In this document: positions 6,062 through 62,006 of the stretch, in pieces
Position numbering within the stretch: the stretch's first letter is position 1
Layout of the letters: each line of letters begins with the position of its first letter
From: a virus
Strand: one strand, 5' to 3'
Length of the DNA: 64,000 nucleotides
IMG/VR virus record: IMGVR_UViG_3300042305_001773
Span: 62,001-126,000 of that record
The notes under the pieces: model-generated
Told to the model about the DNA's origin: nothing
The model's input: the letters and a program-made list of their open reading frames with translations, nothing else
The model's database searches: none
Program-made: the position numbers and the translations under genes

Positions 6062-8602
6062 TTAACTAAATAAAATTGACGGCCAAATAGCCACTGGGCC
6101 TGTGGGGCCTGTAGGGCCAGATGGGCCGCCGGATGGCCCTGTTGGACCAACCGGTCCGGTTGCGCCTGTTTCACCAAACGGACCTGTTGGCCCGCTCGCG
6201 CCTGTCGGACCGGTGACGCCAGTCGGTCCAGTTGTTCCCTGCGGACCTGTTGGTCCAGTTGGGCCTTCAACACCTGTCGCGCCATCTGGTCCAATGGGCC
6301 CAGTCGCGCCCTCGGGGCCGTCTGGTCCGGTTGCGCCTTGTGCCGCTAACACCGGCACGCCACCGATTAAAATAACATCTTGGTACTCAGTCGATTCAAC
6401 GGTTGGCGCTGGACCTGTCGGGCCTGTTGGGCCATCCGGGCCAGAGGCGCCCGTCGGTCCTGTTGCGCCCTGTGCCGCAGCAACAGGAACGCCGCCGATT
6501 AAAATAACATCAGGTTCTTCTGTTGCTTCTACAGTAGGCGCGGGGCCGGTAGGTCCGCTTGGCCCGCGCGGGCCAACTTGTCCGCGAAGTCCTGTAGGTC
6601 CTTCTGGTCCTGACGGCCCGGACGGACCGACGGGCCCCGTTGGTCCGGTCGCGCCTTGTGCAGCAACAACAGGGACGCCGCCGATTAACAAAACGTCCGG
6701 CTCTTCAGTCGCTTCAACCAGCGGAGCCGGCCCTGTCGGGCCAGTTGCGCCGTCCGCGCCAGTTGGACCATCGGCACCCGTTGCGCCGGCTTCGCCGTTT
6801 GGTCCTTGTACGCCGTTTAAACCGCGCTGGCCTGTTAAACCTCTGGGGCCAGTCGAACCAGTCGCGCCCTGTACAGCGACAATCGGCACGCCGCCAATTA
6901 AAACAACTTCAGGAAACTCTGTCGGCTCTACAAGCGGCGGCGGACCGGCCGGGCCGGTTGGACCTGACGGCCCGGATGGCCCGCTCGGGCCGAGAGGGCC
7001 TTGTATACCCTGCGGGCCTTGCAACCCAATAACACCCTGTATACCGGTCGCGCCTTGTGGTCCGGGCGTGCCTTGTATGCCTTGTATACCTGTCGCGCCC
7101 GTCGCGCCAAGCGAGCCAGTAACACCTGTCGCACCTTGCGGGCCGCTTGCGCCTGTTGGACCCTGAATACCGGTTGGGCCGGTGGGGCCTTCTGGTCCAG
7201 TAGGCCCTATTACACCAGTTGCGCCAATCTCTCCTTGCGGTCCCGTTGGTCCGGTAGCACCCGGCGGGCCGACAACACGACCAATGTTTTGCCACGTTGT
7301 TCCGGTCCACGTATACGCAACGCCTTCAGCGGCGTTCACAGGGAGATCTTCGTCTGTTAACGCGTCTACGCCGATGATCCACGTATCGCCGATCACGGGC
7401 GTCCCAGCAGGCGGCCAGCTTTGCGTCGTTCCGTAAAACCGAACACCTACACCTGTTGCGCCGGTTGTACCAACCGGACCCGTCGCGCCCGTTGCGCCCG
7501 GATCGCCTTGCGGCCCGTCGTCGCCAACGTCGCCCTGCGGCCCTTGCGGTCCAGTCGCGCCCTGCGGACCAGTTGCGCCGTCAATACCGTTTATTCCGTT
7601 TGTGCCGGCGACGCCCGTCGCACCTTGCGGCCCGCTCGCGCCTGTAGGGCCGGCAATGCCTGTGGCGCCAAGTTCGCCTTGTGGTCCTGTCGGACCTTGC
7701 GTGCCTGTGGCACCAGTCGGGCCTGCGTCTCCAGTTAGACCGACGTTACCCTGCGGGCCAGTGGCACCTTGTATTCCTGTAGCGCCAGTCGGCCCCTCGA
7801 CACCAGTCGCTCCGACGGTGCCTTGTAAACCCTGCGGCCCTGACAGACCTTGTATACCTTGTGGCCCTTGCGGACCCGATAAACCTTGTAAGCCCTGTGG
7901 GCCTGTCGGACCCGGCAAACCCGTCGCACCAGTCGCGCCAGCGGGTCCTGTTAAACCCTGTGTGCCTGTCGGGCCGGGCTCGCCAGTCAAACCAGTCGCA
8001 CCAGTCGCACCGAGCGATCCAGTCGCACCAGTAGCTCCGAAAGCGCCCGTCGGGCCTTGTATACCAGCTGAGCCGGCGAACCCGCGCGGGCCTGTCTCAC
8101 CTTGCGGCCCCGTCGCGCCTGTTGCACCGCTGCTGCCTTGTGCGCCGCTAGCGCCAGTCGCGCCGGCCGGACCTGTGGCGCCAGTCGGGCCGCGAATACC
8201 AGTTGCGCCCGTCGCGCCACTGATGCCAGAGACACCAGCAGCGCCTTGCAGGCCAGTAGCGCCTGTGGGGCCTGCCGCGCCGGCTAGACCCGGCACACCA
8301 GTGGCGCCGGATTCGCCGGCAGGGCCAGCGACACCCGTTGCGCCGCGAGCCCCAGTTGGACCCATGGCGCCCACCATACCCGCGGAACCTTGCGGGCCGG
8401 TAGCGCCCGCAGGGCCGGTCACGCCGGTAGCGCCCCGAACACCAGTTGCACCTTGCGAGACGAGATTCAGCGCGGCCAGCAGATTGCCGACCGTTGTCTT
8501 TTTAGTGGTAGGAAGATCTGCCTGCTGATCAACGATTGCTATTAAATCGTCGGGGCCCGGTATTGGTTTACTGGGCAGGTCAGATATGCGCTTTTTAGCC
8601 AT
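6062..8602 (-). CDS. Collagen-like fibre protein (large)
   Basis: The 846-residue protein starts with a roughly 50-residue head ([20 protein letters not shown]) ending in the lysine-rich TTKKTTVG segment. Two long stretches of Gly-X-Y triplets follow, dominated by GATG, GPTG and GPQG. Collagen-like tracts of this kind form trimeric triple helices in phage fibres. Around residues 400-460 a non-collagen module with [13 protein letters not shown] interrupts them. In the last third, four copies of a short module around VILIGGVP alternate with triplets. The C-terminus ends in a short hydrophobic tail. A shorter paralogue is encoded at 23571-24416. AGGGA precedes the ATG. A surface or tail fibre role is inferred from the repeats and the neighbours. 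Confidence 0.85.
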
Positions 8603-9598: not shown

Positions 9599-11872
9599 CT
9601 ACACAATGGTTGGGACGCGCCCGGCAGTAGTGCGCAAATAATTGAGATTGAAGAAATCTGGTCGAACCTTGATGGCGCGATACCACACGTTTGGTAGTTG
9701 CATTTCAAATACAACACCCTGATTCACGCCAGTCGTCGAAAAGTTAAATTCTACGGTATTTGGGTTGTCCGCGTTTAAAAGCAACGTGCCTGAATACGTT
9801 GTGTCATTTGCTTTCAAAAACGTATACGACCCGCAGCAGGGCGTGTTGCCGTACGGCGATGCGCCGTGCGCCCGAACAATCGCCAGAGAATTCGCAAGAT
9901 CTATTTCGTATACGACGCCGCGGTGCGGGCGACTAGAGCACGTCTGATTGTCTGAAATAGAGACGATATCGTTGCCGGGTGTCAGCGGCGTAAAATCTAC
10001 GTGCCAGCGTGCGTCGTGTTGCGCGTCAGTGCCGTTGTATTGACTACCAGATACCGTAGGCTCACCTTGCGGCGTTAACCATTTAGTATTCTGCGTCATA
10101 TTTTGTTTGATAACAGGCGCAAGCGGGCCGGCGTGACAGTAACCAGTACCAGAGATAATCCAAATGATATCTTTTGTCTCGTAGTCAATAGCGAACACTG
10201 CGCCGTTGTGCCGGCAGCTGACCACGATATTGCCGGTTACAGGATTGACGTCGACAGAATTCAGGTGGAAGTAGTCTGAATACGTGGTGTTGAAGTAATC
10301 GTCACTCCACCATTCCCATACGATCTGGCCCTGTGGGTTTTGTTCTTGGATATAAAAGCCGGTGGCGTCATATGACTCGCACAAGATGTTGCCCTTGCGC
10401 GCTCCGGGCCCCTTTACGGCGTGGGATTCGTGAATTTCCCATGTGTGAAAACCGCCGCGCGTGTCGGGGTTAATCATCGTATAGGGCTTGGCCGTTAAAT
10501 CGTTCAAACCGATATTGATGTCCCAGCGCGGCGCGGTGTTTGTAGTGCCGTTGGTCATTAGTTTGTTTTTGTCCCACCCGGCGTGCAAACTGACAACTTC
10601 TGCCAGTGAACTGTCGTTGTATGTATACCAAACAGGCACGGCGTTTGAATTGTAAACTGCCATATACGCGCCAACGGGCGCCGCAATGTAGTAGCCCGGA
10701 ACATACGCGTTTGTTTTTGTAGAGATGACGGGTAACGCCGGAAAGTCGCTCGGGAGAATGCGTACGAAATAACTCTGCGCGCCAATTTTGATGCGCAGCG
10801 CTTTATTGACCGTCGCTGTACCTGTGACCGCGGTGCCGCCATTGATGGTGACAGAATAATTGCGCGCAGATGAGCTGTAGAAATCTGTACCCGACCAGAC
10901 AACGTAATCCTGAATTGCCGGATTGAAAGCCGGCTCCATGTCGTTGCCGTCCACAGTAACCGCGAGGCTCGTTACTGTGGCGTTCGACGGAATCTCGACG
11001 AACATGTCCGAGAACAGAGGCTCCTCAGAGATCAATTCCGTAGAAAGAACAGTCGCAGCCCACTGCACCTGATGCGCTGTTGGACCAGTGACCGTGATTG
11101 CAAGCGCTTTGTTTACGCCGTCGGCAGTGACTTCAACGCCAGAGTCTTCCGGCCAGTCCGCGGCAACTACCTCGGCCACGGGAACACCGGACAGACTGAT
11201 ATTGTTAGCATAATCCCTGTAAATGCTGCCGCGGATCGTCCACGCCGCGGAAGTCGTAGCGGACAGGTCGTACGCGGATACTTTGACTTCAAACGCCCAT
11301 GCGGCTCCGGGCGCCAGCGTCAAATATCCAGCCGTACCGTTAATGTACATGCGGGTTGGCGTGTCGTTTTCGGTCGTTGCACGCAGCGTGTACACCGAAA
11401 ATTGTGCGTCACCCGGCGCAAAGAAACTGCCCGCCGACAAAGCCAGTTGAGATTCTTTGGCAGCCACCGCGTGCTTGCCCGCGGCAATGCTATTTAAACC
11501 GCCGGCTGTGTTGTTCGCACCGCCCAGCACAACAGAATTGACGCCGCTAGCTGTGTTGTCTTGTCCGCCCACAACCGCTGACTTCGCGCCAGACGCCGTA
11601 TTATTGCCGCCGCCTAGCGTGGCGGCATTTAGGGCGCTAACGGTGTTGTTCGCGCCGCCACCGGCAAAACCGTCTGTGCCGGTGACCTCGTTATTGGTGC
11701 CGGGGAGTTCGGCGCCGGTCGCGGAGTAGGCCAGTTGGTTCCACGGAGTGATACCGTCGCCATACTTGATCTTGCCCGTGTCGATCTCAAGACACGGTTC
11801 GCCCGCCGCAAGAACTTCGTTTTGATCAGCAAGATAACTTGCCGTTCCTCTTTTAATTCTTATTTCTATCAT
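9599..11872 (-). CDS. Fibre-like protein with arylsulfotransferase-type propeller
   Basis: The 757-residue protein begins with a head domain found on phage fibres (IKRGTASYLADQNEVLAAGE, resembling the N-terminus of major tropism determinants). Next come four or five YadA-head-like repeats (GGANNTASG type, residues about 70-130), a linker, and a cadherin-like strand domain ending FVRILPSDFP. From about 380 to 740 it has the signatures of the arylsulfotransferase family: FHLNSVDVNPVTGNIVVSCR, IVWEWWSDD and QHDARWHVDF, with RGVVYEID near the end. In the bacterial enzyme this fold is a six-bladed propeller with catalytic histidines; conserved His residues are seen here, but activity is unproven. 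No signal peptide is present. A paralogue lies at 20839-23559. Confidence 0.82.
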   Translation of the reverse strand: MIEIRIKRGTASYLADQNEVLAAGEPCLEIDTGKIKYGDGITPWNQLAYSATGAELPGTNNEVTGTDGFAGGGANNTVSALNAATLGGGNNTASGAKSAVVGGQDNTASGVNSVVLGGANNTAGGLNSIAAGKHAVAAKESQLALSAGSFFAPGDAQFSVYTLRATTENDTPTRMYINGTAGYLTLAPGAAWAFEVKVSAYDLSATTSAAWTIRGSIYRDYANNISLSGVPVAEVVAADWPEDSGVEVTADGVNKALAITVTGPTAHQVQWAATVLSTELISEEPLFSDMFVEIPSNATVTSLAVTVDGNDMEPAFNPAIQDYVVWSGTDFYSSSARNYSVTINGGTAVTGTATVNKALRIKIGAQSYFVRILPSDFPALPVISTKTNAYVPGYYIAAPVGAYMAVYNSNAVPVWYTYNDSSLAEVVSLHAGWDKNKLMTNGTTNTAPRWDINIGLNDLTAKPYTMINPDTRGGFHTWEIHESHAVKGPGARKGNILCESYDATGFYIQEQNPQGQIVWEWWSDDYFNTTYSDYFHLNSVDVNPVTGNIVVSCRHNGAVFAIDYETKDIIWIISGTGYCHAGPLAPVIKQNMTQNTKWLTPQGEPTVSGSQYNGTDAQHDARWHVDFTPLTPGNDIVSISDNQTCSSRPHRGVVYEIDLANSLAIVRAHGASPYGNTPCCGSYTFLKANDTTYSGTLLLNADNPNTVEFNFSTTGVNQGVVFEMQLPNVWYRAIKVRPDFFNLNYLRTTAGRVPTIV

Positions 11873-11878
11873 GTTTTA

Positions 11879-14800
11879 TTACGTGTTAAAGGGTGCTGTC
11901 GGGGGTGTGAAGTTGCCGGTGTAAAGTGCCGCGCCCTTCGTGATGCGCAGTTCATCAATGTAGCCGTTAAACCCGTACTGGGCCGTGTGCGCGTAACCGC
12001 CGATCGTCGGCAAGTATGTGAGATTGTTGAAATCAAAAGCGCTATTTACCGGGTCCCCGCCAACACCGTCCAGATACAACCGCATGACGCCGTTGTGCCG
12101 ACACAGCGCAAAGTGCTGCCAAGTATTATTCGACACGGCCGGTCCCCACACATATGTGCCGGGATTTGCTGAGCCGTGATCGAGAAACAGATTGCCTTCA
12201 GAGATTTGCAATGCCAGATAGTTAAAACCGCTTTCGACTTGGCTGTAAATTGTGGTGCCCGGGTCTGGAGCAGTAGGATAAATCCAACCCTCGATTGTAA
12301 AATCTCCCGTACCATACGCGAACATCTCAGGATCTGTCGGTGTCACTTGAACGTTGTCGCCGTAACCCGTGAAATCGCCGCTTGCTCCGTCAAACTTGCT
12401 TTCCGTCGTGCTGATGGCTGCGTTGCCGTTTGACGTTACCGCGTGCGTGTTCGCGCTGCTGTCGGTGAACGTAGTACTACCGTTCGCGCCGTCCATGTGA
12501 AGAAGCAGCACTGTGTTGAATGGCGGCGGCGGCAAGCAGCGATTGATCAAACCACGCTCTAACGCAATCAGCGCGGCTTCGCCCAGCGCGTGGTCAAAGA
12601 TAACTATTTCCGCGATATCGCCGATCAGCGATTCGTTTGCCGCGAGCGAACCGCCGTGACCAATAAACAGGTCTCCGCCCTGTTTAGCTGCCATGTCCGC
12701 ATACAGCGTCGTAGAAACTTCTTCGCCGTTGACCCGGAGTTTCAGCAGTCCGTCAGCGTTAACGGTGTAGCTCAACAGCGTCCAGTCTAGCGGAAGTGTT
12801 GTCGGATACGCGCCGCACTCGTCATTGCCGTAATTACCGGTGCAAGAGGCGTTGTAGAACGTCAACCGATCGGACGGAGCATTGACGTTGATCGTAGCGC
12901 CGTCGAGCGAGTTGTAATCTAGTCCGCTGTCAGGCTGAAAACTCAAAATTCGCGCGTAGGCGTGGTCGTTGTTGGCTTGCTTGAACACCATAAACCCGCT
13001 GGAGTTCTTCAAGTTAAATTGATAACCCACGTCCAGCACGTTCGGGTCGCCGCTGAAGCGCACGACGTCCTGTCCGTTTGGCCCCTCGCCGACCGCCACA
13101 AACGGAGCCGGCGCATAGTCAGCCGGAGTCGCCGTACGGCCGTTTCCGCTCTTGTCAGCCCACGTAACAATCGTGCCGTTAACCTCGCCAATATCGCCCG
13201 TCGAGTCGAGCCACAGATCGCAGCCGGTGACGTCGGTCGGTGTGACGTCGGCTGTTGCGCGGAAAGGAGCAGTCGGCGGGGTGAAGTTGCTTGTGTAGAC
13301 AGCTGTGCTTTTAATGACACGCAGTTCGTCGATATAGCCATTCAACACCGCTGTGGACGGCGAATATCCACCGATGAGTGGCCTGTTAGTTGGGTTTACC
13401 TGATAATTGGTGCTGTCTATAAAGTCACTGCCGCTTTGAACGCCGTCAATAAACAATTTTGTGATACCGCCGCTTCTACAAACGGCGAGGTGATGCCACT
13501 GATTCGCCGTAATATTTGCAGACGCAGAAATGCGATCAGCCGCATTAACGTACCAACGGACATTCCCGTCAGAAATGTACCACGCGGGCGAATTGTTTTC
13601 ATCATAATTTCGCCATTCCATGATGTGCTGAGGTCCGGCCGTGCTATTCAAAAACACCCAGACCTCGACGGTAAAGTCGTCGGACCCAAACGCAAAATCA
13701 TTTGAACTTGCAACCACCAAAGTGCCGGCGCCGGCTAGTGCGAGACTCGCGCCGCCGAACTTGCTCTGTGCGGTGCTGATTTGAGCATTGCCGTTAGCGG
13801 TCACCGTCAACGCATTAGTAGACGAATCCGTAAACGTCGTACTTCCATCAGCTCCGTCAAAATGGAGGAGCAGGTCAGCGGTCGGGCCGGGAACAAACGG
13901 ATTCGGGAACGGAACCGTGGGCGGCGTGAAGTTTGCTGTATAGCGGGCGACGCCCTTTGTAATGCGGAGGTCGTCGATGTAGCAATCGGTTTCCGCAAGC
14001 TGATAGTTGATGGTAGACGCACCAATACTAATACGCGATGCTCCTGTTGGTATCACCGCAGATGTCGTCGTACCTTGCGAGACGCCATCTATGTAAAAAG
14101 TGCGCGTGCTACCGATCTTGGTAATTGCATAGTGATTCCAATAACCAAGAGCCGGGAATGTCACGCTGAACGGCGACGATGAACCGAAATAGTTCCAGTC
14201 AAGGGTTGAATTATTATTGATCAGCCCCCAAGTTTCCCCAGAGTTGTTTTCAAAACAAACGTAGCGATCATTTGGCTCCGTAGAGGTAAATCTCATCCAC
14301 CACTCAACTGTGTAGTCCGCGCTCTCTAGGTCAAAGTCGCCGTCTACCGTCAGGCAGTCGTCCGATTGCAGCAAAACGCTCGCCCCGCCGAACTTGCTCT
14401 GCGCTGTGCTGATGGCAGCGTTGCCGTAGTCGGTCACGGTATTCTGCAGGTACGAGTTGTCTGTAAATACAGCGCTGCCGTTTGCGCCGTCCATATGAAG
14501 CAGCAGCGTGACATTCTCGGCGTAAGGGTCGCCCGTTGGTTGCGTAGCCGGCGGGATGACCGGATCAGGAAGCGCCTTGGTCGGCGGATTGAACTCGGCG
14601 ATGTAACGCGCCACACCCTTCGTAATCCTGAAGTCGTCGATCAGGCCGTCGAGGTAGTAGTCGTCTTCGTTCGTCCAGCGCCGGCCAATCACGGCGGTTG
14701 TCTGCGTGCCGCCGTCCAGATTGATATTTGTATTCGCGGTCGCAACTTCGGCGCCGTTGATGTACATCTTCAGAACGCCGTCGAGCCGCACGAACGCGTA

Positions 14801-17800
14801 GTGCGCCCACGTGTTGTAGTACTCGGCGATGTTGGCCGACACGAATGTGAAATTATCCATGTCGTAGCAGAAGCCAAACATGTTCGTGTCGTCGCTGAAA
14901 CCGATCAGGTACGTGCCGGCTTCCTCTGCTGTCGACGCCGTGGAGAACACTGCAGAGTACTGAACATAACTCAGCTTGCCCCAGAACTCGACGGTAAAGT
15001 CGCCGTCGTCAAAGGCGAACTCGGGTGACATCGCGATCTCGCAGTGTCCGCCCGCAAACTCGCCGCTTGCGTTGCCGTACTTGATATCTTCAAGATTCAG
15101 GTAGGCGCTGCCCGTCGCCGCGACCTCGTGGTTGTGCTTGGACGTGTCGATGAACGTCGTGATCGGCCCAGTTCCGCCACCACCGCCGCCTGCGGCATCT
15201 GGAAAGGCCGCCGTGGGGGGCGTAAAGTTATCAGTGTAGCGCGCGACACCCTTGGTAACCCGCAGTTCGTCGATATAGCCGTCGAAGTTGTACGACGGGC
15301 TGTGGCCGTAACTCCCGACCTGCGGCGTGAACGTAGTGTTGGCGAAATCAAAAGTGCATGCCGCCGGCACGCCACCAACGCCGTCAACGTAAACAGTGGC
15401 CATCCCCTCCTTGCGGCATACCGCAATATGGTGCCACGTGTCGGCCGTTATCGAGCCGCCGTAGACATACGCGCCGGGATTTGAGTAGTTAAAAATAAAC
15501 TGGACTAGTCCGTTTTCGGTTCCAAGAACGCAATAATTGTTGCCCGATGTTGATTGGCCATAGATAACGTGCCAACTGCTTAAATCCGCGCTATTGACCC
15601 AGCACTCGATGGTGAAATCCTCTGTGCCGTAGGCGAAGTTCGCAGATGCGGGGGCGGTCAAGAACGAATTAGAACCGCCGTTAAAGTACCCGCTCGCGCT
15701 GCCGAACTTGATCTCCCCGGTAGAAACAACCGCGTCCCCGGTGGCGACGACGGCCAATGCGTTCGGCGACGAATCGACAAAGGTCGTGCCGTTATTCTCG
15801 CCGTCCATGTGGAGCAGCATCGAAACGTTGTTGAAGTACGGATCGACTCCGGGCGGAGGAACGAGCGTGATCGTGGGGTTTAAGAACGGCGCCGCTGGCG
15901 GATTGAAGTTTTCCGTGTACAGCGCTGTGCCTTTTATGATGCGGAGTTCGTCGATGTGGCCTTTGGAAAAACTTGCAGCGGAAGCTAAGTTCGCATCCGC
16001 TCCGATGTATGTTGGGCCGGGGTTGGTAAGCAAACTACCCGCGTATGTAAATGACAAAACTTGAAGGCCGTCGATAAAAAGACGGAAATTATCTCCAGCT
16101 CGGGTCGCCGCCACATGGTGCCACTGCGCCGGCGCGTATGTTCCTGCCAAGGTAGTGTCCAGCCAACCAGCCCCGGTACTACACAACAGCCTGAACGCGC
16201 TCACACCAGCATACGCACTAATACGCACTTGTGCTGCAGCGGCGCTTTCGCCGACCGTGATCAAAGTATGCGAACCGTCGCCGACGCCACTGCTGTCGCT
16301 CTCTGGTCGCCACCACGTTTCCACAGTCCAGTCACCGCTGCTTAAGTCTATTGCCGCAGTTGGCGCTATCGTGAGTGCAGACGCGGCGTCAAAGTATGCG
16401 CTCGCCCCGCCGAACCTGCTCTGCGCCGTGGATATGGCCGCGTTGCCGGCGCGAGTCACGGCCAACTGATTTTTGCCGCTGTCCGTAAACGTCGTGCTGC
16501 CGTTTGCGCCGTCAAAGTGCAGTAGAAGATCCGGGGCGGGCGTAGACGTTGTCGCAAAGGGCTCCGTCGGCGGCGTGAAGTTAGCTGTATAAACGGCCGC
16601 TCCTTTGACGATACGGACGTCGTCGATATAGCCTTCTACGGTGTATGGTGCTTGTGACGTTCCAATAGTTAACATGTCTGTGGGGTTTAGTACGTACGAA
16701 ACAGAATTGGGCGCGCTGGCGATTTCCGCTCCGTCCGCGAAAAACCGCAGCGTTCCGCTGTGGCGGGCTACTGCTACGTGCACCCACTGCTCAACCGGGC
16801 AGACCCAGCCGCTGCTAGAAAGATCCCAGCCGGTGCAGCCGACACCCATACGAACCTCTGTGGCGCAATTCACGCTCCACGTGCCACATTGTGTTGCGCC
16901 GCCAAATATAGAGGTGTCGCTGGTGTTGGAAAGACGCATCCACCACTCTGCAGTGAAGTCGCCGGTTCCGAAATCAAGCGCAGAAGAATAAGGTATTGAA
17001 AGATATCCACCCCCGCTGCGCGACATAAACAACGACGAGCCGCCAAACTTGCTTTGTGCCGTGGATATGGCGGCGTCACCGTTCGCCGTCACAGTCAGCC
17101 CGTTCTTGCCGCTGTCCGTGAACGTCGTGCTGCCATTTGCGCCATCAAAGTGGAGCAGCAGCGCGGGACCGGCTGGCGGGTTCGGGAACGGCAGGGTGGG
17201 CGGCATGAAGTTGGCGGTGTAGAGGGCCGCGCCCTTCGTGATGCGGAGTTCGTCGATGTAGCCGTTAAAAGTCCTGTAGTTCTCGCCATCCGCCCCTATT
17301 CTGAGATCAGAACTCACCAACGCCGGCCGTGCGCTGTCGTTCACTGTGCCGATTAGTGTGCCATTGGAGAAGGCGTACCAATCGTCGCCGGAACGGCAGA
17401 GAGCCAAATGATACCAGTCCCCAGCAACGGGACTCCACTGACCAAAAACTATATCTCCAGCCGAGCCCAGATGAAAGCCAAGAGCGCTGCCCGGAATCAC
17501 TGGTGCGTTCCAATACAAACCCCATTTCGGGTTGCCCCCGCCGCCGCCAGACTGACCACATATGCTGGTAGGCTGTTCGGTATCTGTAAAATTCAACCAC
17601 ATTTCTATAGTGAAGTCACCGGCGTTCACAAAGTCCCACAAGGAGGAGTCCGGGATAGACAACCAAGAGCCACTGCCGTTGAAATACCCGCTCGACCCGC
17701 CAAACTTGCTCTCTGTTGTAGAAAGCGTCGCGCCATTCGCTGTAACAGTCAGCCCGTTCTCGCCGCTGTCTACGAACGAAGCGCCGTCGAAATGCAGAAG

Positions 17801-20800
17801 CAGCGCCGTCTCAACCGTCGGCATCGTGACGACCTTGGTGTAGCCGAGCGGAAACGAGGCTGTGGGCGGCGTGAAGGCAGCCGTATAACGCGCAAGTCCC
17901 TGCGTGATGCGCAGTTCGTCGATATAAAATTCTTGCGGACCAAAATCAGCGGCCTGTTGACCCACTTGTACTGTGGCGTATTTGGGCAAGTTAAAAGCCG
18001 TGCCCGAATACACCTGCACGCCGTTTACATACATCTTAAATTCGTTTGCGTCTGCGTTGTTGACCCACGCAAGATGCGCCCAAGAACCATATGTATATGG
18101 CGTCGGCGTACTCGGAAACGAATCTGCGGACGGCGTATTTCCCGCGCCCAGCGCTCGCATATAAATAGAATTATCTGCGACTGCGACGTCCATAATCCAG
18201 CGATTTGGAAAATTTTGAGAACCAGCGCCGAGAACTTGTTGGTTATTTACAACGCTCGGGCCGGCGCTTAAAAACCAGCACTCTACAGTCCAACTGCCGC
18301 TAGAGAGATCTACGCCCGGGAAACCGTCAAGATAGTCTGTGTCCGTGTCGGGGCATTTGAGGCTTGCGCCGCCGAACTTACTCTGCGCAGTACTGATTTG
18401 AACCGTTCCTTCAGCCGTAGCCGATCCAGCTAGAGGAGAAGAGTCAACAATATTGGTGCTACCGTTTGCGCCGTCCATTTTGAGGAGCAGCGAGACCTTG
18501 TCGAAGTCGGGGTCGAGGAGCGACTGGCCGGCTTGATTGGGAAACTCTGCTGTGGGCGGCGTGAAGTTGGCCGTGTAGCGCGCGACTCCCTTCGTGATGC
18601 GCAGGTCGTCGATGTACATTTCGGATGTGAAACCGATGTTGTTGGGTTGCATGGCCCCGATCAGCAATCGGTACGGGCCAGCCAAGGGCGCGATGGCGGA
18701 AGAGCCGACGCTCGTGCCGTCCACATAAATCGTGACGGTGCCGTTCGCTCTTGCCGCCGCGATATGAACCCACTGCTCTCGCGGAACCACGCCGCCTATG
18801 GCGCATTGCTGTGTCCCTTCGTCCCACCTCAAGGCGTCGTCAGATCCGATCCATAAATGCAATCCGTAAGGAACATTAATGGTATTAGAAAGATTCAAGA
18901 CCGTAGCGTCGCCAACGGATGACGGACGCCAAACCCACGCTTCAAGCGTCCAATCCCCTTCGGACATGTCCTCGAAGTCCGAAAAATCTCCACTATCCAG
19001 ATAGCCGTTGCCCAAAGACAACGAAGAGCCGCCGAACTTGCTCTGTGCGGTTGAAATAGCAGCACTACCGTTTGCGGTTACAGTCACCGCGTTCGCGCTG
19101 CTGTCGGTGAACGTAGTACTACCGTTCGCGCCGTCCATGTGAAGAAGCAGCGACACGTCGTTGAAATACGGGTCACCGTTACCGCCATCAGTGCCGACCC
19201 CTGCGTTCGCGGGTTTGTCCATATGGAGCAAGAGTGAAACGTTGTCGCCGTATACGTCAGCCGTGAAGTCTTCCTTGCCGAGTTCGTAGTTGTAGAGCAT
19301 CTGGACGTCCTGCAACGACAAGACGCGATCCCAGATACCAAGCTGATCTACCACACACGCGAGGTCGTTCTGCGTCGCCGTCTGGTCGCCAATACCGACG
19401 CGCAGCGGAATGTTTCCCGCACTGAACGACCCGAGCGTGGCGACCTGCGCGGCCTGTGAACCGTTGAGATACAACGTAAGCGTGTTGGCGGTGGCGCTGT
19501 ATACCAGCACAACGTGATGCCAGAGGTTGGCTTCTAGATCCGGCACGACAACGGTGTAAATATCGTCGTCTGTGGCAATACGACCAAACACGGCGTTGGT
19601 GTCAGACCCGTCGTCGCCGAAGCCAAGTTCGACCTGCCCAGAAGCGTTGCCGGCTGCCCAGTTCTGCACGAGCACAGACCGGCCCCCAGCCATGGACGCT
19701 GCTTTAAACCACGCCGAGATAGCGAACGAACCGTCGAGCGCAAAATCGCTGGGCGCCTGTAGGTAGTTGTTTCCGCCAGTAAACTCCGCGGCGTTTTCAA
19801 TGACACCCGAGTCAAAACCAACGGTGCCGGTCGGGGTCAGCGGTACTTCGGCGGCGGTGATATCTAAACGAGCGCCGGTTTCTTCGTTCAACGGCCAGAA
19901 CGCTTTCATGCCCTCACACAGCGGATGCACAGCGCTTACAACAGACCAGCGCTCCATCATGTAATTTTCCGCGTCCAACAAATCGGCCGCGGACAAGACG
20001 CTGTCGTACAAGACAATCTCTGCAATGTCGCCGCTGTAGTTGTCATCGGCAAAGTCGCTGCGCGAGCCGCCGAGCGAAAGGTGCGTCATCGGCGGGACGG
20101 TAAACCCCTCGACTGACACCGTGTTTAAACCATTTAACCGCGTAGACAAACCGGCCAGACTAAACTGCAATGTGTAGACAACCGGTACAAGATTATCGAC
20201 TGCCTGTGTTGCGCTATATTCACCGTCAAAAAATACGCCAAACTCTCCGCCTGTTTCTGTACCGCACAACACAAGCTCTGTGTTGTTGTTAGCCGTATAT
20301 GCCGCAATAACTTTACCGTCGGCACTCGCGCCCCGTCGGCGTAGAGCAACGAGCAGTGTAAACTCCTCGGGCAGGTCCAGCTTGCCGATCATCGCGTCGT
20401 TCTCACCGTCGAACGTCACGACATCTTGATTTGCAAGTTGATTGGCAACAGTCGGTCGGTTTGCTTTATTCGACTGCACGAACTTTGCGTCAGAGTCGGA
20501 AGCGTCCTCCCACAGCGACACGCGGTTGGCAACGCGATGCACGTAGTCAACATTGTCGGCGTCAAGCCACAGTTTCAGGCCGGGTAACGTAGGCGGACTG
20601 AACGTACCGGGTACGGCCGGAACAGCGCCGGCAGTGAACTCACCGCCGTCAACAACTTCCAGCGCGGGATTCGAATATGGTAGGTCGCGCCACGGAGTTA
20701 CACCGTTGCCGTACTTCACCTTATTTGTGTCAATCTCAAGACCCGGCTCGCCGCGGAGCAGAACGGGGTTGAGAGCGTACAGAGCCGCAGCAGTACCGCG

Positions 20801-20824
20801 CTTAAATTGAATATTTGATGGCAT
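11879..20824 (-). CDS. Giant LamG-array adhesin or fibre protein (2,981 residues)
   Basis: The protein begins with the same kind of fibre head (IQFKRGTAAALYALNPVLLR, GVTPWRDLPYS). It continues as a chain of 13 concanavalin/LamG-like jelly-roll modules of about 210-230 residues. Two are of the LWLDA...GDIAEIVLYD type (first and twelfth). One is a classical LamG (FWPLNEETG..., second). Ten are of the LLLHMDGANGSTTFTDSS...IDELRITKGVARYT...FTPPT type. A vestigial start of a module lies between modules 2 and 3. LamG domains usually bind sugars or proteins. No enzymatic motif, signal peptide or membrane helix is seen, so a particle-borne receptor-binding fibre is the best reading. Its arrangement between two paralogous propeller fibres is unusual. 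Confidence 0.87.
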   Translation of the reverse strand: MPSNIQFKRGTAAALYALNPVLLRGEPGLEIDTNKVKYGNGVTPWRDLPYSNPALEVVDGGEFTAGAVPAVPGTFSPPTLPGLKLWLDADNVDYVHRVANRVSLWEDASDSDAKFVQSNKANRPTVANQLANQDVVTFDGENDAMIGKLDLPEEFTLLVALRRRGASADGKVIAAYTANNNTELVLCGTETGGEFGVFFDGEYSATQAVDNLVPVVYTLQFSLAGLSTRLNGLNTVSVEGFTVPPMTHLSLGGSRSDFADDNYSGDIAEIVLYDSVLSAADLLDAENYMMERWSVVSAVHPLCEGMKAFWPLNEETGARLDITAAEVPLTPTGTVGFDSGVIENAAEFTGGNNYLQAPSDFALDGSFAISAWFKAASMAGGRSVLVQNWAAGNASGQVELGFGDDGSDTNAVFGRIATDDDIYTVVVPDLEANLWHHVVLVYSATANTLTLYLNGSQAAQVATLGSFSAGNIPLRVGIGDQTATQNDLACVVDQLGIWDRVLSLQDVQMLYNYELGKEDFTADVYGDNVSLLLHMDKPANAGVGTDGGNGDPYFNDVSLLLHMDGANGSTTFTDSSANAVTVTANGSAAISTAQSKFGGSSLSLGNGYLDSGDFSDFEDMSEGDWTLEAWVWRPSSVGDATVLNLSNTINVPYGLHLWIGSDDALRWDEGTQQCAIGGVVPREQWVHIAAARANGTVTIYVDGTSVGSSAIAPLAGPYRLLIGAMQPNNIGFTSEMYIDDLRITKGVARYTANFTPPTAEFPNQAGQSLLDPDFDKVSLLLKMDGANGSTNIVDSSPLAGSATAEGTVQISTAQSKFGGASLKCPDTDTDYLDGFPGVDLSSGSWTVECWFLSAGPSVVNNQQVLGAGSQNFPNRWIMDVAVADNSIYMRALGAGNTPSADSFPSTPTPYTYGSWAHLAWVNNADANEFKMYVNGVQVYSGTAFNLPKYATVQVGQQAADFGPQEFYIDELRITQGLARYTAAFTPPTASFPLGYTKVVTMPTVETALLLHFDGASFVDSGENGLTVTANGATLSTTESKFGGSSGYFNGSGSWLSIPDSSLWDFVNAGDFTIEMWLNFTDTEQPTSICGQSGGGGGNPKWGLYWNAPVIPGSALGFHLGSAGDIVFGQWSPVAGDWYHLALCRSGDDWYAFSNGTLIGTVNDSARPALVSSDLRIGADGENYRTFNGYIDELRITKGAALYTANFMPPTLPFPNPPAGPALLLHFDGANGSTTFTDSGKNGLTVTANGDAAISTAQSKFGGSSLFMSRSGGGYLSIPYSSALDFGTGDFTAEWWMRLSNTSDTSIFGGATQCGTWSVNCATEVRMGVGCTGWDLSSSGWVCPVEQWVHVAVARHSGTLRFFADGAEIASAPNSVSYVLNPTDMLTIGTSQAPYTVEGYIDDVRIVKGAAVYTANFTPPTEPFATTSTPAPDLLLHFDGANGSTTFTDSGKNQLAVTRAGNAAISTAQSRFGGASAYFDAASALTIAPTAAIDLSSGDWTVETWWRPESDSSGVGDGSHTLITVGESAAAAQVRISAYAGVSAFRLLCSTGAGWLDTTLAGTYAPAQWHHVAATRAGDNFRLFIDGLQVLSFTYAGSLLTNPGPTYIGADANLASAASFSKGHIDELRIIKGTALYTENFNPPAAPFLNPTITLVPPPGVDPYFNNVSMLLHMDGENNGTTFVDSSPNALAVVATGDAVVSTGEIKFGSASGYFNGGSNSFLTAPASANFAYGTEDFTIECWVNSADLSSWHVIYGQSTSGNNYCVLGTENGLVQFIFNYSNPGAYVYGGSITADTWHHIAVCRKEGMATVYVDGVGGVPAACTFDFANTTFTPQVGSYGHSPSYNFDGYIDELRVTKGVARYTDNFTPPTAAFPDAAGGGGGGTGPITTFIDTSKHNHEVAATGSAYLNLEDIKYGNASGEFAGGHCEIAMSPEFAFDDGDFTVEFWGKLSYVQYSAVFSTASTAEEAGTYLIGFSDDTNMFGFCYDMDNFTFVSANIAEYYNTWAHYAFVRLDGVLKMYINGAEVATANTNINLDGGTQTTAVIGRRWTNEDDYYLDGLIDDFRITKGVARYIAEFNPPTKALPDPVIPPATQPTGDPYAENVTLLLHMDGANGSAVFTDNSYLQNTVTDYGNAAISTAQSKFGGASVLLQSDDCLTVDGDFDLESADYTVEWWMRFTSTEPNDRYVCFENNSGETWGLINNNSTLDWNYFGSSSPFSVTFPALGYWNHYAITKIGSTRTFYIDGVSQGTTTSAVIPTGASRISIGASTINYQLAETDCYIDDLRITKGVARYTANFTPPTVPFPNPFVPGPTADLLLHFDGADGSTTFTDSSTNALTVTANGNAQISTAQSKFGGASLALAGAGTLVVASSNDFAFGSDDFTVEVWVFLNSTAGPQHIMEWRNYDENNSPAWYISDGNVRWYVNAADRISASANITANQWHHLAVCRSGGITKLFIDGVQSGSDFIDSTNYQVNPTNRPLIGGYSPSTAVLNGYIDELRVIKSTAVYTSNFTPPTAPFRATADVTPTDVTGCDLWLDSTGDIGEVNGTIVTWADKSGNGRTATPADYAPAPFVAVGEGPNGQDVVRFSGDPNVLDVGYQFNLKNSSGFMVFKQANNDHAYARILSFQPDSGLDYNSLDGATINVNAPSDRLTFYNASCTGNYGNDECGAYPTTLPLDWTLLSYTVNADGLLKLRVNGEEVSTTLYADMAAKQGGDLFIGHGGSLAANESLIGDIAEIVIFDHALGEAALIALERGLINRCLPPPPFNTVLLLHMDGANGSTTFTDSSANTHAVTSNGNAAISTTESKFDGASGDFTGYGDNVQVTPTDPEMFAYGTGDFTIEGWIYPTAPDPGTTIYSQVESGFNYLALQISEGNLFLDHGSANPGTYVWGPAVSNNTWQHFALCRHNGVMRLYLDGVGGDPVNSAFDFNNLTYLPTIGGYAHTAQYGFNGYIDELRITKGAALYTGNFTPPTAPFNT
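12449..12509. repeat. 61-nt exact repeat, copy A (last LamG module)
   Basis: These 61 bases, coding for the start of the thirteenth LamG module, are identical to 19091-19151 at the start of the third module, although the rest of the two modules differs. It is the longest exact match I found in the array by eye. Confidence 0.85.
19091..19151. repeat. 61-nt exact repeat, copy B (third LamG module)
   Basis: This is the partner of the repeat at 12449-12509, in the same orientation and reading frame, 6.6 kb apart. Direct in-frame repeats like this allow deletion or exchange of whole modules by recombination. Confidence 0.85.
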
Positions 20825-20838
20825 GATGTGCTACTGAG

Positions 20839-23559
20839 TTAGGATACGACTGTTATGGGCAAACCAGCGGTGGCACGCAGGTAATCAATGTCGAAATAGT
20901 CTTTAGAGACTTTCGTGATCCTATAGAGATCGCCGGGAAAGTCTACCGCAAAAATGACGCCCGTGGGAGAAGCGCCGTCGCCGGCGTCACCGTATTCGAC
21001 AAGCGGCGGGTGTTGCTGCGTGAAATTTAACACGTGGCTAAATGAGCCGTTATCGTGCAGCATGATTTGATAGCTGCCGAGGTAGCCGGACGTGCCGTTG
21101 GGGGCAAAAGCACTAGAACGGTGAATTGCGTGCTCGTTAGTCAGGTCAATTTCGTAAATAACGCCACGGGCAGCAGGCGAGTTTTCGCTATTTGGCCAGT
21201 ACGTTAAAGCACGCGTTGCCGTGATTGTACCCGTAGCCGTAACCGTACCCGTTGTCGCGACGTTATAGGTAAACGTGTTTGCGTTTACAACGGCGACAGA
21301 AAATACACCATTGAACACAGCCTCGTTTGCCCCGGTTACCTTCACATACGAGCCGTTTACAAAACCGTGCGCCGTTGCGGTACCCGTGACAAGATTGCCG
21401 TCCTGCGCAAGTGCCGTCACCGTTTTGGGCGAATTAGTGCTGCCGGCAAAAAACCCCGCTTGATTGTCAAATATTGCAACAACTTCGTTGCCCGGCGTAA
21501 GCGGATTTACATTAACAGCCCAGCGCGCATGATGCTGGCCTTCAGGGCCAAGATACTGGTAACCCTCTAGTTCCGGCTCGCCTTCAAGGGTCAGCCATTT
21601 GGCGTTATCCAACGTGTACTGGTTTGCCGTCTGCTGAATACCGCCCCACGGTTGTGACGCACCCTGAATCACCCACTTGACGTTTTTAGTCGCGCGCTCA
21701 ACGCAAACAATAGCTGAGCACTGCCGGCAGCTGAACAGCATGTCGCCTGTAACCGGGTGGATATCCACCGAGTTCATGTGGAAGAACGACGCGTTCCGCG
21801 CCAGCGTTGTCTGGTCAAACCTGTCGCTCGTCCACCACTCCCAGCCGATCGTGTTTTGCGGGGTCTGCTCTTGGACATAGACGCCGTACGCTTTGTCGGT
21901 CAGGGCTTGTGAGCCGGCGGTTGGCTGCGTGACGAACGTGTTGTAAAGAATATTGCCACGCTGTTGCGGCGGGCTCTTGATTTCTAAAAACTCGTGATTG
22001 CCAAAGTTGTATTGGTAGCTATTGCCGTTTCGAATAGCTGGCAAAAAGCTGAATTCTTTAGTGTCAATAGAGTCTTCGGTGATCGTCATCGAGAAGCGCG
22101 TACCTGTGCCGTTACGGCTGACGCCGATCTTGTTCCGGTCGTTGCCGTGCTGCGCTAAGTGCGGCGTGCCGGCGTTCTGTACGTACCACACCGGTACGCC
22201 GTTTTCGTCGTACACGATATTGTAGTTGTTGACATTAATGTCACGGCGGCTTGTCGTGATGTAGTAGCCGGGCACGTAGCCGGCTTGCGGCTGTGTTGTA
22301 ATCGTGCCGAGCGGCATATCGGACGGGAGCAGGCGGACATAGTAATCGTCTGTGCCGTTTGTTACGCGAATAAGCTTCCCGACCGAGCTAACACCCGGAT
22401 AAGCGACGCCGTTAACCGTCACTGTGTAGGTGACAGATGAGCCAGCCGCCACAGACGTCGTCAGAATGCCGTAGTCGCGGATTGCCGCGTTGAATGTCGG
22501 ATACAGCGTATTTGTGTTACCGACAATAGAAGCAGTAATTGTGTTAATTGCGCCGGTTACGTTCAACGTGACAAACGCCTCGTAGTTAATAGACGGTTGC
22601 GGAGGCGCCGAAATCGTGTACGTGTTCTCGCCGCCGCCGTACAGCGTTTGAACTTCGGCTGGTGTCAGCGCGCGATTCCAGACACCAAGGCAGTCGATAT
22701 CCGCTGACACAACGTTCGTGCGTCCGAGCATAAACTTGGCTGTGGCGTTCGTCGGGCCAGCGCCGCTAACGAGCACGGCAGCGGTTTGAACGCCGTTTTC
22801 ATAAATGCGCAGATAGTTTTGCGTCGTGTCGTGTACAAAGACAATGTGGCGCCACTGGGCATATGGTAACTCGGTGGCGGTGGCAACTGTTGTGTTTGCA
22901 GTCCCAACTTTCGGTAACCACGTGAGCTTGCCGTCGGGCGCAAAATAAATACGGGCCTGATCAGCTGCGCCGAAGCCGGCGATATTTACAAGCGGATATT
23001 CCGCCGCTGTGGCGCCAAGTAGCGTCCAGTACCCCGGCGAGGGTACGTAGCCAGCGGCGCCAATAAACGTGTGCATCCGCCACAGCTGCCCGTTGAGCGA
23101 AACCATATCGCCGGGGCCGTATGTAACGCCACCGTTATATGCGCCCTTAAAGCGCGTATCGACTTTGACCCACATCGCTAAAGTCTTATGTCCGACAAAA
23201 GCGTTATTTGCGTAATAGAAATTACGCTTTGCCAGCCGCAGTGCGCCGTCGAAACCCGACACTGTCTGCTCCGAAACTCCTTCATACAGCGTGACATTGC
23301 CGCCAGACACGTCATCGACACGCATGCTGTTTCGGTCAAACATCCAGAACGCCATCAATCCTTGGCGCAGCTGGTCATACTGTACTTCGCCGCCGTCGAC
23401 GCCGCCGGACGTCGTAAGGTCAACGACGGAACCGTCAGCTTTTTTCGTAAACAGCCGCCCGTCGGCGGTATTGATAGCTAATTCGCCGAGGGCGAGGTCG
23501 GCGGCTGTCGGTACGGCGCCGGCGTCGCCGCTGCGCTTGTGCTTAATAATGTTTGCCAT
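20839..23559 (-). CDS. LamG plus arylsulfotransferase-type fibre protein
   Basis: The 906-residue protein has a fibre head (IIKHKRSGDAGAVPTAADLA, GELAINTADGRLF). A LamG domain (about 65-310) follows. It is interrupted by a 45-residue segment with YNGGVTYGPGDMVSLNGQLW and PGYWTLLG, which looks like a CBM5/12-type chitin-binding fold. Next is a cadherin-like strand domain ending VRLLPSDMP, then the arylsulfotransferase-type propeller (FHMNSVDIHPVTGDMLFSCR, GWEWWTSDRF, GQHHARWAVN). The propeller is itself split by an insertion of about 70 residues rich in Thr and Val. The second signature is QHHAR where the paralogue at 9599-11872 has QHDAR. The role is probably receptor binding; catalysis is untested. 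Confidence 0.82.
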   Translation of the reverse strand: MANIIKHKRSGDAGAVPTAADLALGELAINTADGRLFTKKADGSVVDLTTSGGVDGGEVQYDQLRQGLMAFWMFDRNSMRVDDVSGGNVTLYEGVSEQTVSGFDGALRLAKRNFYYANNAFVGHKTLAMWVKVDTRFKGAYNGGVTYGPGDMVSLNGQLWRMHTFIGAAGYVPSPGYWTLLGATAAEYPLVNIAGFGAADQARIYFAPDGKLTWLPKVGTANTTVATATELPYAQWRHIVFVHDTTQNYLRIYENGVQTAAVLVSGAGPTNATAKFMLGRTNVVSADIDCLGVWNRALTPAEVQTLYGGGENTYTISAPPQPSINYEAFVTLNVTGAINTITASIVGNTNTLYPTFNAAIRDYGILTTSVAAGSSVTYTVTVNGVAYPGVSSVGKLIRVTNGTDDYYVRLLPSDMPLGTITTQPQAGYVPGYYITTSRRDINVNNYNIVYDENGVPVWYVQNAGTPHLAQHGNDRNKIGVSRNGTGTRFSMTITEDSIDTKEFSFLPAIRNGNSYQYNFGNHEFLEIKSPPQQRGNILYNTFVTQPTAGSQALTDKAYGVYVQEQTPQNTIGWEWWTSDRFDQTTLARNASFFHMNSVDIHPVTGDMLFSCRQCSAIVCVERATKNVKWVIQGASQPWGGIQQTANQYTLDNAKWLTLEGEPELEGYQYLGPEGQHHARWAVNVNPLTPGNEVVAIFDNQAGFFAGSTNSPKTVTALAQDGNLVTGTATAHGFVNGSYVKVTGANEAVFNGVFSVAVVNANTFTYNVATTGTVTATGTITATRALTYWPNSENSPAARGVIYEIDLTNEHAIHRSSAFAPNGTSGYLGSYQIMLHDNGSFSHVLNFTQQHPPLVEYGDAGDGASPTGVIFAVDFPGDLYRITKVSKDYFDIDYLRATAGLPITVVS

Positions 23560-23570
23560 GTGAGTACCTG

Positions 23571-24416
23571 TTAGTAAGCGCCGCCGTCGATAATAGAGTT
23601 GTTGTAAATAACGGTACCGCCGCCACCAAAATTAATTGGGGCATCATCGGCGGCCGAAAAAGTCATCGTGTTAGATACGGTTAATGTTTTTGTCGCGGCA
23701 ACAACTACGCCGGTGGCGTTTTCACCGGCAGGACCTTGCGGGCCGGTCGGGCCTTGTGCGCCAGTTGCACCAATCGCCCCTGTTTGCCCGTCGTTCCCCG
23801 CTGGACCCGCGGGGCCTTGTGGCCCAGTCGCACCTTCTACGCCGGCCGGACCTGTGCTGCCCTGCGGTCCGCGAATCGGGCCGACGTTGACCCAACTTGT
23901 GCCTGTCCAAACAACGCCGTCGCCGGGTAACGTGCCGACTGGCGCGTCGTTTGGCGCCGGATCGGCGATCAGCCACATATCACCTACATCTGGATTTTGC
24001 GCTGGCGGCCACGTAAGCGCCGTACCTTCAATCGTCACACCGGAACCGGCAGGACCTTGCGGGCCGGTGGCGCCAACAAGTCCTTGCGCACCAGTCGCGC
24101 CGGCGTCTCCAGCAGGTCCTTGCGGTCCCGTTGCCCCCTGTGCGCCAGCAGCGCCCTGTGCGCCGGGCTCGCCTTGAGGACCAGTAGCGCCCGTGTCGCC
24201 AGCAGGGCCTTGCGGGCCTGTAGCGCCGCGCGGGCCAGTCGGCCCTGTGGCGCCAGCTCCGCCCCCGCCACCGCCGTCTGTCAAACCGAGAATGGCCCCA
24301 ATCGTTGTGCGCTTTGTCGCCAGATTGTTCGGGTTTTGCGTATCAACAATCGGGACGATGTCGTTCAGCGTTGGTGTTTGTTTTTCAGGTAACGCTGAAA
24401 TACGTTTATTCGACAT
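23571..24416 (-). CDS. Collagen-like fibre protein (short)
   Basis: This 281-residue paralogue of the protein at 6062-8602 has the same kind of head ([20 protein letters not shown], ending TKRTTIG) and a glycine run. Two Gly-X-Y tracts ([20 protein letters not shown]) flank a 50-residue interruption with [16 protein letters not shown], which matches the interruption of the larger protein. The C-terminus is a small strand-rich cap ([19 protein letters not shown]), perhaps a trimerisation element. AGGTG precedes the ATG. It marks the upstream end of the fibre locus. Confidence 0.85.
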
Positions 24417-28274: not shown

Positions 28275-30197
28275 TTATTGAGCTGGCGCACCTTGGCCAA
28301 ATTGTTGCGCCATCACCATTGCGCCGCCTTGAGACCGCGCTTGCTGCCGAATGTCGTCAATGATGCTGGTCACAAGCGCGTGCATCGTCGAGTCGGAGCG
28401 CTTGAGTTTGATTAGCTCTGAATCCTTTACAGACTCAGGCATAGACAACAGCTGATTTGCAATAAGCTGCGCCTGCTGCTGCAGCTCTTCAGGCGTTCTC
28501 GGTACGTTCGGCGAGTTCTGCCGCTGCGATAGAAACTGGTCGACCGGACTCGGCATCTGACCCGGCATACCACCGGCCGGAGCTTGAGCCGGCGCGCCGC
28601 CTCCTTGCGGCATACCCGTAGCGCCGGCACCAGTGTTGCCGACACCTGACATCATGTCGGGCGCCTGACTCATATCCTTCATCTGCTGCGCCTGCTGCAT
28701 CTCAGCCTGCATGCGCTCTTGCTCTTCCGCGTAGATCTTCTCTTCTTCGAGCATCTGCTTGATCTCGTCGCGATAGTCCAGACCAACACTCGACAGCCCG
28801 GTGCTCTTGCTGATCTGCTGGCCCTGCATGAGCTGGAGTTTGGCCATCTGACGATTGAGGTCGTCGGCGTGCGTGACGCGCATAAGCTTGGCGCTCACCG
28901 GCTCCCACGACATAACGCGCGAAATAGAAGACACAAGCTCGTTGAGAAACAAGTTCATATTGTGCGGTAAGTGGCTCCAGTTCGCTTCAAAAAGGCGTAG
29001 CGCGGCGGGAGCGGCTTGCAGCGTGAGCGTGCCGTTAAAAAGCTCGACCGGCATTCCGATGCACTTCAGCAGTGTTTCGAGCCCCTGATCAAGCAGGTCG
29101 CGCGGGGCGAGCTGCGACGCGTCGCCGCCAAGGGCCTGATACTGCACGGGGAACGGAAGAATGTTCCATCGCGCCGGGTCTGTGCGGCGAGCACGAATCA
29201 TCGAGTTTACACGCGCCGTAAAGCTCGACAGATTAATAGTGTGAACCGGATCGGAAGACTGCGAGTCGCCGCCACGGGGCATCGGCGTAATCACGCGAAA
29301 CGGGATAACATAATCCAGCGCAACAGCTTCGTTGTATCGCTTCAAAATTTGGTAGTACCACGCTTCGCGGAAGTTAGCCAGCACGCGCGAGATACCCCAG
29401 CCGCGGTTACGCATACCGGCCAGCGGATCTTCTTTCAGATGGAAAATCACACCCTTATCAAACATCAAGTTCTGGCCATTCTTGATCGCCTGAATAACTT
29501 CCCAACTAGCGCGCTCAAGATGATGTAAATGGCCCTGTTTGATCAGCGTGCGATAATCTTCTGGGATCTTCCACACATACGAGCACTCGCCCGTGTACGG
29601 ATCCCACAAGATATCAATTTCGTGCGGGCTCCAGCGCTTGACAGTGATATGGCTTGTATCACCACTACGCCGGTCGATATGTTTCCACGGCCCGACGTAT
29701 TTGCATTTTGGGCAGCTAGCGTGAAACTGGAAATTCTGCCACGAGAACGCGCACTGGTCTGAATTCACGACCCGATCAAGCGGCATTTCAAGTCCGCATT
29801 TTGGGCAGAACAGATAGCGCCGAAACGGCACAAGCAGACTTGTAAAAGAGTTGCCGTAGGTCATGTAATCCATGCCTACAGAGTGCAGTACATTTTTAAT
29901 GCTGAGCGTGTCCGAAAGAAATGTTTCGTACTTCTCTTTCTCTTCACGCCCGGTTTTGTTTTCACCGACGTCTTGAATTTCAACGTCTGTAATAAAATAA
30001 GACACCACGCGATCGATGGCCTGCCGATACGGGCCATTCGCGTTCATAATGTATTCCGTCCAGCGCAGCGCGGTCTGGATGCTCTCCGGCATCGACAGAC
30101 TAGCTACGTCACAGAACGGATCAGGAAACCGCTCGTCGGCTTGTACGCCGCGACCGAGCGAGTTGTACCCCATAGAAGCAGATGGTTGCAGCGACAC
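28275..30197 (-). CDS. Portal protein
   Basis: The portal forms the dodecameric ring through which DNA enters and leaves the head. The 640-residue protein starts at a GTG with GAGG upstream and shows portal-type segments: ALRWTEYIMNANGPYRQAID at the start of the clip and stem region, TYGNSFTSLLVPFRR, then LKEDPLAGMRNRGWGISRVL with the long helix AWYYQILKRYNEAVALDY. GMPVELFNGTLTL and an ANWSHLP segment follow. The last 130 residues are Gln/Met/Pro-rich and low in complexity. Unusually, two CPKC pairs (about residues 131 and 162) suggest a zinc ribbon inserted in the wing region. The assignment rests on pattern and size, not on a search. Confidence 0.8.
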   Translation of the reverse strand: MSLQPSASMGYNSLGRGVQADERFPDPFCDVASLSMPESIQTALRWTEYIMNANGPYRQAIDRVVSYFITDVEIQDVGENKTGREEKEKYETFLSDTLSIKNVLHSVGMDYMTYGNSFTSLLVPFRRYLFCPKCGLEMPLDRVVNSDQCAFSWQNFQFHASCPKCKYVGPWKHIDRRSGDTSHITVKRWSPHEIDILWDPYTGECSYVWKIPEDYRTLIKQGHLHHLERASWEVIQAIKNGQNLMFDKGVIFHLKEDPLAGMRNRGWGISRVLANFREAWYYQILKRYNEAVALDYVIPFRVITPMPRGGDSQSSDPVHTINLSSFTARVNSMIRARRTDPARWNILPFPVQYQALGGDASQLAPRDLLDQGLETLLKCIGMPVELFNGTLTLQAAPAALRLFEANWSHLPHNMNLFLNELVSSISRVMSWEPVSAKLMRVTHADDLNRQMAKLQLMQGQQISKSTGLSSVGLDYRDEIKQMLEEEKIYAEEQERMQAEMQQAQQMKDMSQAPDMMSGVGNTGAGATGMPQGGGAPAQAPAGGMPGQMPSPVDQFLSQRQNSPNVPRTPEELQQQAQLIANQLLSMPESVKDSELIKLKRSDSTMHALVTSIIDDIRQQARSQGGAMVMAQQFGQGAPAQ

Positions 30198-61997: not shown

Positions 61998-62006
61998 GGT
62001 GTTGCC

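Follow-up and report, generated by a model that had tools for sequence, protein, structure and literature searches.

An arylsulfotransferase-type module on phage fibre proteins and its candidate role in editing the host surface

The stretch of DNA analyzed here (the window, 64,000 nucleotides) covers positions 62001 to 126000 of a 205,044-base record of an uncultured tailed phage and contains, on its minus strand, a 757-amino-acid open reading frame (ORF) with an ATG start codon, P0001, in which phage fibre parts are joined to an arylsulfotransferase (ASST)-type beta-propeller. The question raised by this locus is whether such a fibre carries a working enzyme or a propeller reused for binding. 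Most virion enzymes known so far act by glycan cleavage, deacetylation, or cell-wall digestion. The ASST enzyme fold is itself known, and what is new is its place on phage fibres; no paper describing an ASST in phages or on phage fibres was found among the open-licence literature. The reading favored here, to which we give a probability of roughly 55%, is that P0001 is a catalytically competent, PAPS-independent ASST located at the fibre tip and editing a host-surface receptor or capsule.

Domain architecture and fold of P0001

The preliminary description had proposed this ORF and two ASST signature motifs, FHLNSVDVNPVTG (starting at residue 535) and QHDARWHVDF (starting at residue 618), and the exact ORF and both motifs were confirmed. 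The Pfam domain PF05935 (Arylsulfotrans) matches residues 519 to 697 with an E-value of 1.8e-11 and 44.1 bits, compared to a cut-off of 24.2, which rules out a chance motif as the origin of the ASST match; the PF14269 score is just below its cut-off (26.4 vs 27). The following parts of the gene, all on the minus strand, were delineated:

9599..11872, minus strand: P0001, fibre-ASST protein of type 1, consisting of Mtd_N, a YadA-like shaft, a sandwich, and the ASST propeller (ORF, Pfam)
11747..11863, minus strand: Mtd_N, a phage fibre/structural attachment domain, residues 4-42 (PF18454, E=1.1e-8)
11438..11701, minus strand: YadA-like beta-roll repeats, residues about 58-145 (UspA1, E=0.0043; strands in the first AF2 model)
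11018..11437, minus strand: spacer domain, residues about 146-285 (no Pfam or PHROG match)
10754..11005, minus strand: N-terminal beta-sandwich of the ASST module, residues about 290-373 (AF2 strands)
9662..10693, minus strand: ASST beta-propeller, residues about 394-737 (PF05935, AF2, Foldseek)

The fibre head that had been proposed for this protein is borne out by the Mtd_N match, and the same stretch is also found in cyanophage structural proteins. The YadA-like repeats, proposed at the same time, have weaker support than Mtd_N, as the LbR_Ice_bind and YadA_head matches fall under their cut-offs. Cyanophage fibres of the Mtd_N/YadA-like kind (e.g., in S-SM1) have the same N-terminal attachment domain and repeats as P0001, and their match to it ends at about residue 111. 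The spacer domain that follows the repeats is recognizable in three other sequences (L027, L030, and L031). The claimed absence of a signal peptide also holds for the P0001 sequence (MIEIRIKRGTASYLADQ...); such a lack of periplasmic export, which is not a defining property of the ASST fold family, would be expected of a protein carried on the virion. Fibre-type parts comprise Mtd_N above its cut-off, members of the PHROG tail and structural families, and BppL_N in L009. From the N-terminal Mtd_N, YadA-like, or LamG parts, we infer that the ASST propeller is positioned at the fibre tip.

The fold of the ASST module (residues 280 to 757) was modeled by AF2 from a 20-row alignment, with a mean pLDDT of 89.1 and a pTM of 0.90 (pLDDT of about 95 for the sandwich strands, E12-94 of the module); this model was used instead of the full-length one, which was built from nine rows and reached a pLDDT of 51. 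In a Foldseek comparison with the PDB, the best nine matches were all chains of the Escherichia coli ASST (EcASST), the top one with an E-value of 3.4e-13 and a TM-score of 0.50, followed by two chains of Cpz4 (E=3.5e-11 and 2.0e-10), whereas the first non-ASST protein appeared at E=6.3e-7. A search of BFVD found no comparable viral structure (best E=1.5e-7), and a PDB sequence profile search with the module reached Cpz4 only, not EcASST. The global agreement of the model with EcASST is modest (overall TM-score of about 0.5, whole-chain rmsd of about 10 A, and ~13% identity), which is best read as the right family with a domain placement that differs or is imperfectly modeled. The EcASST-type family fold is a beta-sandwich followed by a six-bladed beta-propeller, and the model of the P0001 module matches proteins of this fold best in the Foldseek comparison. 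The proposal that a phage fibre bears a propeller of the ASST type is upheld by AF2 and Foldseek. Sequence and fold both assign the module to the ASST family, and the second copy described below (P0002) also exceeds the PF05935 cut-off.

Three groups of known proteins are instructive for comparison. EcASST (PF05935; PDB 3ELQ, 3ETS, and 4P05), the best fold match, has the same combination of sandwich and propeller as well as equivalents of five active-site residues; its N-terminal beta-sandwich (PMC13426309) corresponds to the one ahead of the P0001 propeller (residues about 290-373). In contrast to EcASST, which is a free periplasmic enzyme and a homodimer (PMC13426309), the phage module forms the end of a fibre, belongs to a clade of its own, and is only ~13% identical to it. 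Cpz4 (PDB 9KF4 and 9KF6), an ASST-type sulfotransferase that ranks second by fold (E=3.5e-11, rmsd 5.3) and first among PDB sequence matches, differs in being a Streptomyces enzyme of antibiotic biosynthesis (caprazamycin synthesis) and not a component of a virion. The nearest cellular relatives among those sampled are secreted ASST-like proteins of Bacteroidota (e.g., L111, L112, and L114), which share the H[CIQL]N, S.R, and QHD[AI]R motifs with the phage copies; some of them have C-terminal sorting-type tails, but none has a phage fibre part.

The conserved active site and its possible uses

In EcASST, His436 acts as the nucleophile that becomes sulfated, in a site lined by His252, His356, Asn358, Arg374, and Thr501 (PMC13426309). 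An alignment of 20 phage copies and the Salmonella ASST (L004) placed equivalents of five of these residues in P0001:

10430..10432, minus strand: H481, equivalent to EcASST His252 (20/20 phage copies)
10265..10267, minus strand: H536, equivalent to EcASST His356 (20/20 phage copies and the Salmonella ASST)
10259..10261, minus strand: N538, equivalent to EcASST Asn358 (20/20 phage copies and the Salmonella ASST)
10211..10213, minus strand: R554, equivalent to EcASST Arg374 (20/20 phage copies and the Salmonella ASST)
10016..10018, minus strand: H619, equivalent to the sulfated nucleophile His436 of EcASST (20/20 phage copies and the Salmonella ASST)

The position of H481, where the Salmonella row is gapped or misaligned, was mapped through an alignment with the Bacteroidota ASSTs, in which it pairs with the His of the cellular SHD motif; the QHD[AI]R motif around H619 is also present in the Bacteroidota relatives, and no equivalent of Thr501 was placed in the alignment. 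The catalytic histidines, whose replacement would have counted against the proposal of the preliminary description, are kept in all copies, and the arginine corresponding to Arg374 is invariant. Because every mapped active-site residue is conserved, an enzyme is more likely than a pure lectin, and an active sulfotransferase is favored because the complete invariant catalytic set sits on what appears to be the fibre tip.

EcASST takes aryl sulfates as donors and transfers the sulfuryl group by a ping-pong mechanism. The two putatively distal fibre proteins of the cluster each end in an ASST module (sandwich and propeller). In the favored reading, a sulfate ester bound in the propeller funnel would pass its sulfuryl group to H619 while H481, H536, N538, and R554 would hold the sulfate; from H619 the sulfuryl group could then go on to water or to the hydroxyl of an acceptor. 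In this way the fibre might move or remove sulfate on host-surface glycans or phenolics, with reversible binding and editing of a receptor or capsule as the possible outcome. The chemistry could run in the direction of sulfate removal, movement, or addition. Such a fibre tip may be comparable in its role to glycan-processing tailspikes. Endosialidase tailspikes likewise place a catalytic beta-propeller on a tail protein and act on a surface glycan, but they hydrolyze glycans and differ from the ASST fibres in both propeller family and chemistry. Presence in the virion, activity, substrate, and a role in adsorption are all properties that we infer for the ASST fibres.

The main competing explanation, which appears possible but distinctly less probable, is a lectin-like reuse of the propeller without turnover, the old catalytic pocket serving to bind a sulfated or phenolic receptor. 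The neighboring genes code for fibres of the binding type (LamG repeats and collagen), a receptor-binding tip needs no chemistry, and a binder too would keep the residues that hold the sulfate; conservation of the active-site residues could equally serve ligand binding alone. However, H619 is invariant together with the sulfate-holding residues in 20/20 copies, down to about 33-35% identity, and a binder would tolerate a change of the nucleophile in some of them. If the module does nothing but bind, it would still be a new receptor-binding fold.

Some other chemistry of the propeller, for example sulfate-ester hydrolysis only or transfer of a different group, is improbable. Such a role would be in keeping with the versatility of this propeller family and with the ~13% identity to EcASST in the structural match, and ASSTs do hydrolyze their donors when there is no acceptor (PMC13426309). 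On the other hand, in EcASST the counterparts of the five mapped residues serve to hold the sulfuryl group, and Cpz4, the next-best fold, is likewise a sulfotransferase. The least likely explanation is that the ASST is made in the infected cell for a non-virion role, such as late modification of the cell wall or of small phenolics: many phage enzymes are found outside the particle, but every examined copy is fused to Mtd_N, YadA-like, BppL_N, or LamG parts, there is no signal peptide, and in both of the unrelated phage types the genes lie among fibre genes, with the portal close by.

If the preferred reading, an active ASST at the fibre tip, is true, sulfate group transfer, previously undescribed in this setting, would be added to the chemistries of virion enzymes, sulfated or phenolic receptors would be implied on the hosts, and a sulfo-histidine, which is easily assayed, would be predicted on the phage fibre. 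The phage ASST modules also represent a new sequence family for in vitro sulfation work.

Genomic context and distribution of the ASST fibres

P0001 is part of a fibre gene cluster that includes a second ASST gene and is located close to the portal protein gene:

6062..8602, minus strand: collagen-like fibre neighbor, 846 aa (PF01391, PHROG tail fibre families)
11879..20824, minus strand: fibre neighbor, 2981 aa, containing Mtd_N plus 12 or more LamG domains (Pfam)
20839..23559, minus strand: P0002, fibre-ASST protein of type 2 (LamG and ASST module), 906 aa (PF13385, PF05935)
23571..24416, minus strand: collagen-like fibre neighbor, 281 aa (Pfam, PHROG)
28275..30197, minus strand: portal protein gene, about 4.7 kb upstream of P0002 (match to the Salmonella phage Arash portal)

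Neither P0002 nor the beta-sandwich of P0001 figures in the preliminary description. P0002 is 33% identical to P0001 and matches PF05935 with an E-value of 3e-11 and 43.4 bits (cut-off, 24.2). Its propeller contains a bead-like insert of about 80 aa that is conserved in all of the type 2 copies, at least six in number. The 2981-aa fibre has a counterpart with a shuffled set of LamG repeats in a related phage. The larger collagen-like gene shows 100% nucleotide identity over 2538 bases to positions 7299-9836 of L001 (IMGVR 3300031857_000015), whereas the adjoining ASST gene is only 86.9% identical to that of the same relative; this pattern suggests that exchange or conversion took place very recently. 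Plus-strand open frames of 354 and 308 aa at positions 6102-8528, opposite this collagen-like gene, are most likely by-products of its repeat composition and not genes.

The end of the 205,044-base record repeats its start and a capsid-protein match spans the ends, and the record is therefore probably a complete, circularly assembled genome. Its portal protein is 27% identical to that of Salmonella phage Arash over 485 aa (E=9e-72), with no Portal_T4 found in the window's own phage, and its terminase is also related to that of Arash. The cellular-type RNA polymerase beta-like subunits (G000/L035, 10487-17747) are 32% identical to those of Arash and of Vibrio phages D69, D148, and D181, and these sequence relationships identify the phage as a distant member of the Arash/D69/D148/D181 group. 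No PAPS-type Sulfotransfer_3 was detected in G000.

Scanning 2.9 million viral contigs iteratively, together with a per-record search, yielded 23 ASST-fibre copies on 15 viral contigs, the window's included, with one more on a short contig (L012); 8 of the 15 contigs carry two copies each. Across these contigs the module is combined with Mtd_N and YadA-like parts, LamG, BppL_N repeats, or LamG and PA14/GLEYA, and in L055 a separate YadA-like ORF of 802 aa precedes an ORF that starts with the ASST module. A sequence artefact or a bacterial contaminant was ruled out, given that many contigs carry the genes within phage fibre ORFs and that the ends of the record repeat. The INPHARED cultured phages contained no ASST module and gave N-terminal fibre matches only; the Salmonella ASST matches seen among cultured phage records were chromosomal genes in mis-filed records.

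Portals of the window's type (Arash-like) are encoded on six contigs, and a T4-type portal (Portal_T4) is found close to the ASST gene on three contigs (L049, L055, and G003). ASST fibres are therefore carried by two unrelated lineages of tailed phages. The earlier suggestion that the module is virion-borne gains indirect support from the Mtd_N head, the shaft repeats, the fibre neighbors, and the proximity of the portal in two phage types. In the tree, phage copies are separated from the sampled cellular proteins, all from a single phylum (Bacteroidota), with a support of 95/99, and the second-copy type clusters with the T4-portal set and not with the first-copy type; this grouping points to fibre tips having been exchanged among lineages rather than to a recent duplication. 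The ASST modules have dN/dS values of 0.05-0.13 and no stops, indicating purifying selection. More tentatively than for P0001 itself, and with the balance tilting slightly to the other side, these proteins could form a class of fibres with an active PAPS-independent sulfotransferase tip that spans two unrelated lineages, often comes in two versions per phage, and edits host-surface sulfation during adsorption.

On the T4-like phage contig L049 (19-8410), ASST modules flank the portal gene, and one of them is part of a 1475-aa YadA-like fibre. In L055, the T4-like portal and the ASST fibre have a further neighbor at positions 268-1089, a PAPS-type sulfotransferase (PF13469, E=2e-11).
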